Positions 16,574 to 20,719 of a DNA stretch of 64,000 nucleotides are shown piece by piece (within the stretch, counting starts at the first letter, position 1; each line of letters begins with the position of its first letter). The position numbers were made by a program, and so were the translations under genes. The notes beneath the pieces were generated by a model that worked only from the letters and a program-made list of their open reading frames with translations, was not told where the DNA came from and searched no databases. Origin of the DNA: Polyangiaceae bacterium (lineage in GTDB: Bacteria > Myxococcota_A > Polyangia > Polyangiales > Polyangiaceae); the NCBI GenBank assembly GCA_025353725.1, contig JANXOF010000002.1, forward strand, positions 1 through 64,000. The letters are read 5' to 3'.

Positions 16574-17032
16574 GTGAGCAAAAAAGCTGAGAGCGATGCC
16601 GCGCGAACCAAGGTGCTGCGCGACGCGGGCCTACGAAAGACACGCCCGCGGCTCGCGGTACTCCAGGTCCTCGAGGGAGCGACATCACCGTTGAGCCACG
16701 CGGACGTGGCCGATGAGCTGAATGACCAAGCGCTTGACCGTGCGACGGTTTATCGCAACTTGATGGCGTTAACCGAGGCCGGGCTCGTTCGGCGCTCGGA
16801 CCTGGGCGACCATGTCTGGAGGTTCGAGCTCGTTCGTGCTCTCGCGGCTCACGGAAGCGCACACCCGCACTTCGTGTGCTCCGACTGTGGCACAGTTTCC
16901 TGCCTGCCCGGTGTCACCGTTAGCCTTGAGGGTGACGGTGCCGCGTCGTTCTCTCGCAAGGGGGTCGAGCTGCAGCTCCGCGGGGTCTGCGCCGCCTGCG
17001 AAGCGCCGAAGGTCCGCAGGCGACCCGGGTAG
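16574..17032 (+). CDS. Fur-family metal-dependent transcriptional regulator
   Basis: 152 residues, GTG start. N-terminal winged helix LRDAGLRKTRPRLAVLQVLEGA (the RxTxxRxxVL signature) and DRATVYRNLMALTEAGLV (recognition helix). The metal-binding C-terminal half has HPHFVCSDCGTVSCLPG and CAACEAP, giving two CxxC structural zinc pairs, and GSAHPHF supplying His ligands. It lacks the DEH-rich regulatory segment of Fur proper, so it may be of the Zur/PerR or BosR type. An upstream AGGAG is about 15 bases from the GTG, longer than ideal. Confidence 0.9.
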   Translation: MSKKAESDAARTKVLRDAGLRKTRPRLAVLQVLEGATSPLSHADVADELNDQALDRATVYRNLMALTEAGLVRRSDLGDHVWRFELVRALAAHGSAHPHFVCSDCGTVSCLPGVTVSLEGDGAASFSRKGVELQLRGVCAACEAPKVRRRPG

Positions 17033-17100: not shown

Positions 17101-17823
17101 GTGCGGAACCTCGCCACTCTCGCCGCCATCGTTGTGTCCGTCGCGACAGGAACACACTTCGCGTACCAACTTGGACATGCTGGGCAGCTCGCCTTCCTCG
17201 TTTGGTTGAGCGTGCCGACGCTGCTTATCGCGGCGATGGGGGCCTATCGAGCTCACGGCGACGGCGATCTCTACCGCGCGAGCTCTTTTGATGAAAGCGG
17301 TGCGGGAGCGGGATGGCTCAACGTTCGTTCGGGCGACTTCACCCGTGGTTTCGTTGCCGCGGCCGTCCTCTTCGCGAGCGCGTACACCGCGATGAAGAAA
17401 GTGGCGCCGAGTGGCTCCGATCGCGAAAGTTGGATGGCAAGGTTTTACCTTCAAGTCGGCGACCCGACGACCCTTCGCAAGCAAGTCTTCTTCGTCGTTG
17501 TTGCTATTGTCGTGATGGCGGTCGCGGAGGAGTTGGTGTGGAGAGGCCTCGTAGTTTCCCTCCTCGAACCGCTTGTCGGCTCTCGTCGTGCGTGGGTTTG
17601 GGCGGCTCTCCTAGCGTCGACAGCGCAGCTCCCAACGCTTTGGGCGCTGCGCGATCCGGTGGCGGGGCTGAATCCCATGCTCCCCGCGGCGGCGCTGTTC
17701 GGGGGACTCGTCTTCGGCTTCATGGCGCGAAGATTCGGTCGGCTACTCCCCGGGATGTTCGCGCGGGTTCTCTTCTCTTGGACTATCCTTATGATGTTCA
17801 GGCTTTGGGGGCCGAGCGTCTGA
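17101..17823 (+). CDS. CPBP-family intramembrane metalloprotease-like protein
   Basis: 240 residues, about six membrane helices. The CPBP (Abi) signature appears as VMAVAEELVWRGLVV (EExxxR motif), followed by a second conserved region with hydrophobic helices (AALFGGLVFGFMARRFGRLLPGMF). The usual third motif with conserved His/Asn is weak, since I see RVLFSW where VxxHxxxN is expected, so catalysis is uncertain. CPBP proteins are related to Rce1/prenyl CaaX proteases and can act in bacteriocin immunity or membrane protein processing. It lies 68 bases after the Fur-family gene and may be co-transcribed. It converges on the superoxide-reductase-like gene. Confidence 0.75.
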   Translation: MRNLATLAAIVVSVATGTHFAYQLGHAGQLAFLVWLSVPTLLIAAMGAYRAHGDGDLYRASSFDESGAGAGWLNVRSGDFTRGFVAAAVLFASAYTAMKKVAPSGSDRESWMARFYLQVGDPTTLRKQVFFVVVAIVVMAVAEELVWRGLVVSLLEPLVGSRRAWVWAALLASTAQLPTLWALRDPVAGLNPMLPAAALFGGLVFGFMARRFGRLLPGMFARVLFSWTILMMFRLWGPSV

Positions 17824-17849: not shown

Positions 17850-18587
17850 TCAGACGGTGAGCGACAGCGCTTTCCAAAGTCCGTGTAGAGTGCACCACTC
17901 ATACGCGGTGACTGCGGTTACACCGTCGGGTAAGGTAAACTGGACGGTGGGGGGAGCTGCGTCCGTCGATGTGAACTCCCAAAGCCCTACGACGGTCTCC
18001 TTTCCGCCTACACTGGCGCGGATGAAAATCGACGTAATAAAGTGGACAATTGCGGGGCCCGCGTCGGCTTTCGGACCGCCATCGAGCTTGGGTCCAGCAT
18101 CGACCGGTGACGCATCGACTTTCCCGGCGTCGGATGGCGCTCCCGCGTCGAGAAGGTTCTTCCCCATCACGTGTTCAACTTTGACTTGGACCTTCTTCTT
18201 GCCGTCAACGACAACGATGCTGGCCCTCGGCTCGTGGCTATTCTCTTTTCCGGCCCACATACCGGGGTCAAGCCGGGTGAACGCGCTTCGGGCGTACAGC
18301 CGCTCCTGCTCCGCATCGAGCTGCTTCGCGCGAGATTCCCATACCTGATTCGGGACCCTCGGTACTTCCTGGCCCGGGTCGACGGGGGTGCTCGTGCCCG
18401 GAAGGTGTTCATCTTCGTCAGTCGGTACGACAGCGGCGTCAGCGCCCTTGAGCTTCTTGTCGTTAGAGACGACAGCCTGGGTGGCCGCGTCACTACATGC
18501 GGCGAGAGTGCGTCCAACCGCCATGGCGCCAATGCTCACGGCGAGGGTCCGAAGCATGACTCGTCGATCGATCTGTTTGGCTTTCAT
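17850..18587 (-). CDS. Tat-type lipoprotein related to superoxide reductase (desulfoferrodoxin/neelaredoxin fold)
   Basis: 245 residues. The N-terminus has a twin-arginine motif (RRVMLRTLAVS, R8-R9) and a lipobox LAAC (C31), so export as a folded metalloprotein and lipidation are likely. Residues 108-145 and 178-238 carry the ligand set of superoxide reductase center II: H118 (SHEP), H139 (EHVM), H182 (VHFI), C232 and H235 (CTLHGLW, canonical CNxHGLW). Spacing of the second and third His is normally about 6; here it is 43, because of an Asp/Ala/Gly-rich insertion (about 146-178, LLDAGAPSDAGKVDASPVDAG...). No rubredoxin-like center I is present. It has a good upstream AAGGAAAG. Confidence 0.7.
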   Translation of the reverse strand: MKAKQIDRRVMLRTLAVSIGAMAVGRTLAACSDAATQAVVSNDKKLKGADAAVVPTDEDEHLPGTSTPVDPGQEVPRVPNQVWESRAKQLDAEQERLYARSAFTRLDPGMWAGKENSHEPRASIVVVDGKKKVQVKVEHVMGKNLLDAGAPSDAGKVDASPVDAGPKLDGGPKADAGPAIVHFITSIFIRASVGGKETVVGLWEFTSTDAAPPTVQFTLPDGVTAVTAYEWCTLHGLWKALSLTV

Positions 18588-19789: not shown

Positions 19790-20719
19790 ATGAGTAGTCT
19801 CCGAAGGGATTTCGCGATCTCAATCTCAATCTCAATTAGGCGGCTTACGACCTCGACTGTCGTCGGGTTCGCGCTGATTTGTGGTTCAAGTGACGCTCAT
19901 GCTTACTGCCGATCGACGACCTGTAAGGTAACGAAAACGGAGGATTGCACTCCGGACGAGCATCGCTGTCCGCGAGCTGGCGTGACGATCGCGTGGACGC
20001 GAATGCCCATTACCTATCGCTTTTCGGAGGTCAATCCCTCACGCTTTCTGCGGGAGGAGGCTCGCGCCGCCATTCGCTCCTCGTTTCATCGTTGGAGTGA
20101 CACGATTTGCAGCGGCGGTCGTACCTCCCTCCGGTTCGTCGAGGGCGAGGACATTGCGACAGACACGCCGTTTGTTGTCGGCCGCCCCGAGGGTGAAAAA
20201 TTCGGCATCTACTTTCGTGAGGACGTTTGGCCGCATGATGGCGCAAATACGATTGCACAGACGAATCATCTTTTTGGTACGGCGTCCGGAACCATCACGG
20301 ACGTTAACCTCGAAATAAACAACATAAAAGGTACTGCCTTTTCAGTTTCGGACTCTACGGACGTAAGTGACGTAAAAACTTGGGACCTGCAATCGGTGAT
20401 TACCCACGAGGTGGGTCACTATATTGGTTTTGCGCACAGCGACGATCCTGTCTCGATTATGGTGAGTTCCTATTGCGCCGACGAATTGAAAGCGACGCGC
20501 TGCAACAAGGGTCGTATTGAAGCGCGTCGGCTTGCGCCGGATGACATCGCCGGTCTCTGCGCGCTGTACCCGCCCGGCGCGACCTACGACCCGCCGGCAA
20601 CGTCCGGATGCCTCGTCGCGCGTGAACCGTTGCGCGATAGCTCTGTCGTCGCGCTCGTTAGCGGCGCCCTGGTGGTGCTTGCCGCCGCGCGCAGACGCCG
20701 TCGTGCGCGTCTTTCCTAA
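19790..20719 (+). CDS. Matrixin-type zinc metalloprotease with C-terminal MYXO-CTERM-like anchor
   Basis: 309 residues. Signal peptide, then a mature Cys-containing domain. The zinc motif is HEVGHYIGFAH: H206, H210, H216, with E207 as base, followed by a Met-turn (SIM at about 224) and the family's DDIAGLCALYPP. The C-terminus (GCLVAREPLRDSS, hydrophobic segment ALVSGALVVLAAA, then RRRRRAR) resembles the MYXO-CTERM sorting tail of Myxococcota, although shorter than the consensus. The signal peptide includes three ATCTCA repeats encoding Ser-Ile pairs. Secreted or outer-membrane protease; substrate unknown. Confidence 0.85.
   Translation: MSSLRRDFAISISISIRRLTTSTVVGFALICGSSDAHAYCRSTTCKVTKTEDCTPDEHRCPRAGVTIAWTRMPITYRFSEVNPSRFLREEARAAIRSSFHRWSDTICSGGRTSLRFVEGEDIATDTPFVVGRPEGEKFGIYFREDVWPHDGANTIAQTNHLFGTASGTITDVNLEINNIKGTAFSVSDSTDVSDVKTWDLQSVITHEVGHYIGFAHSDDPVSIMVSSYCADELKATRCNKGRIEARRLAPDDIAGLCALYPPGATYDPPATSGCLVAREPLRDSSVVALVSGALVVLAAARRRRRARLS
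19817..19834. repeat. Three tandem ATCTCA hexamers in the matrixin signal peptide
   Basis: Three copies of ATCTCA encode alternating Ser-Ile in the signal peptide. The hexamer is close to the GTCTCA repeat in the lipoprotein gene at 38.7 kb. Confidence 0.7.

Follow-up and report, generated by a model that had tools for sequence, protein, structure and literature searches.

The gene at 17850-18587 on the minus strand of the window (the whole stretch of Polyangiaceae DNA analysed here, 64,000 nucleotides) raises the question of whether the iron site of a superoxide reductase (SOR) can accommodate a long run of residues between two of its ligands, in a protein that also begins with an export-type leader. 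The open reading frame, its coordinates and its residue numbers check out, the product being 245 aa long, and the motif AGGAAAG is located immediately 5' of the ATG. The gene is laid out as follows:

17850-18587, minus strand: SOR-family gene, Tat-lipoprotein-like, 245 aa (open reading frame; PF01880 match; homologs aligning over nearly the full length)
18495-18587, minus strand: leader with twin-arginine motif R8 R9, hydrophobic stretch and lipobox to C31 (by eye; invariant in 12/12 aligned rows)
18237-18494, minus strand: residues 32-117, low-complexity linker, predicted helix (residues 81-98) and lead-in to the SOR domain (model; pLDDT below 50 for residues 1-73)
18171-18236, minus strand: residues 118-139, SOR domain part 1 with ligands H118 and H139 (alignments; modelled strands 120-127 and 130-137)
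18045-18170, minus strand: residues 140-181, loop between ligands 2 and 3 with the D/A/G-rich insert, 42 residues against the usual 5 (alignment; pLDDT below 50 for residues 142-180)
17853-18044, minus strand: SOR domain part 2 with ligands H182, C232 and H235 in CTLHGLW (PF01880 positions 42-97; ligands invariant in 12/12 rows)

An earlier note on this DNA had proposed that the protein recreates the ligand set of SOR center II, and had named a profile search, a fold prediction and a phylogeny as the means of checking it. The ligand order of that center, H..H..H..C-x-x-H, was indeed found, and the five residues matching the iron ligands (H118, H139, H182, C232 and H235) are invariant in all 12 rows of alignment A3, which is confined to 8 insert-bearing proteins and a choice of 4 Tat lipoproteins without the insert. 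The Pfam profile PF01880 (Desulfoferrodox) matched the protein with 27.6 bits against a curated cut-off of 22.2, at profile positions 42-97, and scored above the cut-off in all 10 homologs scanned (L013 stood outside that scan). Judged from the sequences, the layout is beyond chance, because PF01880 exceeds its cut-off and three homologs at 47-52% identity have the identical layout. An NCBIfam profile scan of the protein gave no match, and its SOR matches in a phmmer search against the PDB were weak (best E 0.14).

The PF01880 match starts only at position 42, and the effect of the insert on it was evident when the tract was taken out. Without 36 loop residues the score was 38.0 bits instead of 27.6, and the coverage widened from 42-97 to 5-97; likewise, the relative L007 minus 44 residues reached 37.9 bits over 3-97, and L012 minus 80 residues gave 34.7 bits over 26-97, a smaller gain in profile match. 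Since removal of the tract raised the score and brought both halves into the match, the SOR domain is, by this profile, complete in the window protein and L007, its first half being present and simply masked by the insert. The alternative of a degenerate protein, its site broken by the insert, is very improbable: the insert does interrupt the metal-binding half of the domain, but the ligands and the core are conserved over the 8 insert-bearing proteins (45-95% pairwise core identity), and the frames are free of stops. Homologs lacking the ligands, which the earlier note would have taken as evidence against its reading, were not encountered among the insert-bearing proteins, as 8/8 keep all five. 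A 2Fe desulfoferrodoxin (Dx-SOR) was also considered and rejected, there being no N-terminal desulforedoxin Cys4 site and no cysteine in the protein other than C31 and C232.

AlphaFold2 models, built from alignments of 4 sequences, reached a mean pLDDT of 53.4 at full length and of 66.4 when limited to residues 80-245. In the latter model the ten-residue blocks outside the insert ranged from 57 to 88, those around the first His from 57 to 60, and residues 142-180 were below 50; H182 falls within a low-confidence stretch of the whole-protein model. The top six Foldseek matches of the whole-protein model were SORs, with unrelated folds directly after. In VIA-align, SORs headed the list for either model (Z 10.2 for the whole protein, 10.6 for the domain), with SoxYZ close behind (Z 8.5 and 9.4, respectively). 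When the domain model was re-aligned, the top ten ranks comprised nine titled SOR structures and 2hvb, titled hypothetical protein PH1083, with Z 9.5-10.6 over 88-111 residues and rmsd 2.5-3.6 (best Z 10.6 over 111 residues at 3.5 Å), with SoxYZ chains at Z 9.1-9.4 and a single MHC-like chain at 8.6. The SoxY/SoxZ sulfur carrier thus has a beta-sandwich similar to the model (Z up to 9.4), but the window protein has the SOR ligand set and ends in ...WKALSLTV, without the C-terminal GGCGG that is the SoxY motif. Solved SORs being the best match in both cases, the prediction supports an SOR beta-sandwich fold at modest model confidence, metal geometry lying beyond the reach of these models. Among solved proteins, neelaredoxin or class II 1Fe-SOR (4bk8, 6gq8, 1do6) shares with the window protein the modelled beta-sandwich, the His4Cys order and the C-x-x-H, whereas the window protein has in addition a putative export leader, a putative lipidation site and the insert, and N-S-H in place of E-K-H.

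The distance between the second and third His (H139 to H182) is 43, as against the 6 usual in the SORs compared, so that a D/A/G-rich tract does spread these two ligands as had been proposed. Ligands could be placed by script in 33/40 SOR rows, 7 remaining unplaced: the 8 insert-bearing rows had a distance of 40-91 (loop of 39-90 residues), and the other 25 had 6 in 20 cases, 8 in two, and three that the script mis-parsed (6 by eye). All 8 loops lack His and Cys, and the insert as an extra metal site was rejected on this ground; D, A and G together make up 50-76% of the loop residues, and the net charge runs from -2 to -16. The insert is less similar than the core in 27/28 pairs (global alignments), its figure being inflated by low complexity. 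Because His and Cys are absent, length and sequence vary and pLDDT stays below 50, the insert resembles a disordered, acidic loop of low complexity, probably a tolerated one, more than a novel element for metal binding.

A functional insert, i.e. a disordered acidic segment that acts next to the iron as a lid or docking arm, controlling access, holding cations or receiving a redox partner, is a doubtful alternative. It would account for the single exact site in 8/8 clade members, for a composition that is always net acidic and D/A/G-rich, and for the loop start L-D/E-A-G common to 7/8. Conversely, the loop length is loose (39-90 residues), one copy contains a long Gly run, and inspection of the middle revealed no conserved motif. 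D/A/G tracts also occur elsewhere: a pattern search of the source genome with three D-A-G codon sets returned 3 matches where the reversed control gave 1, numbers too small to yield a rate, and did not pick up the SOR insert itself; by eye, each of the 3 frames concerned has a lipoprotein-like N-terminus. Furthermore, the tract drew a compositional match to an esterase chain in the PDB (E 0.62). A scan of the window for further D/A/G tracts was empty at a threshold above the SOR insert's own level.

Three near-full-length relatives of 47-52% identity were obtained from a pattern-based contig scan, namely L007 from a Polyangiaceae MAG and L006 and L008 from one Labilithrix MAG (RYN_370), where the latter two are paralogous insert-bearing SOR genes. 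A profile search of 108 family genomes gave matches in 7, including the source genome, in 2/48 genera; all 8 proteins have the D/A/G-rich tract at the identical site. At the level of the order (183 genomes, counting those of the family) one more genome gave a match, with an insert-free protein. With the window protein as sole query 4/377 phylum genomes were matched, and with the Pfam Desulfoferrodox model 34/356, all above cut-off; one of these matches (L043) was missed by our own small HMM and is absent from later counts, and two short partial matches are likewise outside them. In an Anaeromyxobacter genome paper, D. vulgaris is given as the sole SOR holder among the delta-proteobacteria surveyed (PMC2330069); the 34/356 count for this phylum comes from wider sampling. 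A plasmid collection search gave no match; beyond the phylum, coverage consists of that collection and the pattern-based contig scan, and insert-bearing SORs may occur elsewhere.

In a tree of 40 SOR domains, calculated with the insert left out, the insert bearers formed one clade (support 96/88; 1 change; 96% of 200 bootstrap trees), so that a single gain of the insert is likely. Other copies with the insertion, for which the earlier note had proposed to look, therefore exist, the insert bearers being 8 proteins with the window protein included. Since few inner branches are well supported (9/37) and L049, L019 and L041 are long branches, the deeper order is unsure; L043 and the four-domain protein L044 are outside the tree, and the domain limits of the rows come from our own small HMM. 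No description of an insert between SOR ligands was found in the titles, abstract openings and passages that made up the literature searched. Within these searches the insert looks new on the sequences at hand, as had been surmised.

The protein begins with MKAKQIDRRVMLRTLAVSIGAMAVGRTLAAC, which by eye is a leader of the twin-arginine type closing on a lipobox Cys, with the RR motif within DRRVMLRTLAVSIGAMAVGRTLAAC. R8, R9 and C31 are kept in 12/12 rows (the 8 insert-bearing proteins and the 4 chosen insert-free Tat lipoproteins), in line with the signal and lipobox that had been suggested, but in a Pfam profile scan the protein was not among the matches of the TAT model. The window protein is probably exported by Tat and anchored in the envelope.

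The further suggestion that an exported SOR is unusual did not stand. SORGOdb (2011) defines a TAT-SOR class, with seven SORs predicted to be Tat-secreted (PMC3116461), and a periplasmic SOR is listed in a table on the Sulfurimonas of oxygen-saturated water (PMC10066037). In addition, insert-free Tat-lipoprotein-like SORs occur in several Myxococcota families (L003, L004, L042, L046, L047, L050, L051 and L052, leaders by eye). The TAT-SOR class (PMC3116461) and the window protein alike have a center II domain and no desulforedoxin domain, the domain following a twin-arginine leader that is putative in the window protein; the class allows no further domain or cofactor site, and no second Pfam family was above cut-off in the window protein. 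The latter adds to that description (PMC3116461) a lipobox and the D/A/G-rich insert between ligands 2 and 3, the TAT-SOR alignment itself standing outside this comparison. L003, L004, L042 and L047 share with the window protein the RR motif, the lipobox Cys, an H-x-P start and the ligands, and differ from it in a His2-His3 distance of 6 or 8. Another SOR-family protein (L041:1480-1983, minus strand) has by eye a Sec-like leader instead of a Tat leader, and no Lys before its first His.

Where SORs typically have E-K-H, the window protein has N-S-H (N116-S117-H118), a difference that the earlier note does not mention. The Glu-Lys pair was kept in 17/17 leaderless Dx-SOR rows, whereas the Lys was absent in 17/17 readable rows of the exported clade (L041, the 8 insert rows and 8 insert-free Tat rows); for 3 of the 34 rows the reading was by eye, and L019, L036, L037, L039, L040 and L049 of the 40 are outside the count. 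The Lys bears on activity, as Lys48 is described as hydrogen-bonding the bound peroxide in the D. baarsii SOR intermediate (PMC2824530). Its absence across the exported clade argues for an exported iron protein that has the SOR fold and site but another role, such as sensing iron or redox state, carrying electrons or holding iron as a lipoprotein. However, all five ligands are kept, L004 retains the Glu, and the divergent Tat protein L049 retains the Lys. Moreover, natural SORs without one or the other seem to exist, going by titles: PDB entries for a T24K mutant of I. hospitalis SOR imply Thr in the wild type, and a 2008 paper names an N. equitans SOR without the Glu ligand. The pair is for this reason taken here as typical rather than strictly defining.

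The surroundings of the gene also bear on such a role, in that an electron donor might be encoded nearby. Its neighbours are:

16574-17032, plus strand: Fur-family regulator gene (Pfam)
17101-17823, plus strand: Rce1-like (CPBP) protease gene (Pfam)

BLAST between the predicted neighbours at 8 loci revealed no conserved partner genes apart from the SORs themselves, sharing being confined to the closely related L054 and L057, and a conserved operon was accordingly rejected; the L006 locus in this comparison is only 4.2 kb long, and its SOR was displaced by an antisense frame during ORF picking. The source genome gave no match for rubredoxin and none for Cu/Zn-SOD, in an assembly that is 97.55% complete in 98 contigs, such that these absences are not absolute. 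The missing donor, with neither a rubredoxin match nor a conserved partner gene, again favours a role other than superoxide reduction. Weighed against the conserved ligands and the natural variants, that role is nonetheless unlikely. An SOR fold and site are well supported for the window protein by profile and model, and it likely works as an SOR.

Two Fe/Mn-SOD matches were found in the source genome, one without an evident leader and one, at L071:1036-1848 on the plus strand (G000:C13), with a twin-arginine lipoprotein-like leader (LTRRDALSSFLLGSAGFGAALATGC). On account of this second gene product, superoxide in the envelope may be handled by more than the window protein, the source organism possibly having an SOD there as well as an SOR. 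Two matches of the CCP_MauG family (di-haem peroxidases) were above cut-off in the same genome, and these proteins could serve as peroxide removers.

We thus consider it likely that the gene encodes a one-iron SOR-family envelope lipoprotein in which the insert is a disordered loop that leaves the site intact, gained a single time in Polyangiaceae. The protein would fold with Fe(II) in the cytoplasm, leave in the folded state by the Tat pathway and then become anchored in the cell envelope, where it would most likely draw electrons from an envelope donor to turn superoxide into peroxide. The D/A/G-rich tract would form a solvent-exposed, disordered extension of the loop between two strands, with the four-His/one-Cys site preserved, and would have drifted in length after its one acquisition in the Polyangiaceae lineage. 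Of this account, the domain, the ligand conservation, the insert position and the single insert clade were computed, and Tat export, metal binding, activity, the electron source and the disorder of the insert are what we infer. A bolder version, in which the acidic disordered loop and the lost Glu-Lys of one Polyangiaceae lineage re-tune access to the iron or dock a new envelope donor, and so change the chemistry, is rather improbable.

These results suggest that a long insertion of low complexity between two ligands (loops of 39-90 residues where 5 are usual) is tolerated at the iron site of SORs, and that SORs of the envelope type occur across Myxococcota. Provided that they are active, the insert-bearing SORs would be simple models both for rubredoxin-free superoxide removal outside the cytoplasm and for the real contribution of the Glu-Lys pair.

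Further observations were made on the window and the phylum. The Rce1-like CPBP gene (17101-17823, plus strand) converges on the SOR gene with a gap of 26 bases, and its product shows a weak likeness to myxosortase (30.8 bits, cut-off 100). At 19790-20719 on the plus strand lies a matrixin-like metalloprotease gene (PF00413, 55.5 bits), the product of which resembles the myxosortase-dependent MXAN_2677/2678 family far under the cut-off (80.1 vs 250 bits). In another genome of the phylum (G169), L044:1186-2616 on the minus strand (also L058) is one frame of 477 aa with a Tat-lipoprotein-like leader and four complete tandem SOR center II domains. It gave four Pfam stretches and 119.7 bits; CNLH closes domains 1 and 3 and CDDH domains 2 and 4, the pattern that doubling of a two-domain unit would leave. 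This four-domain protein is possibly more unusual than the insert-bearing SOR.
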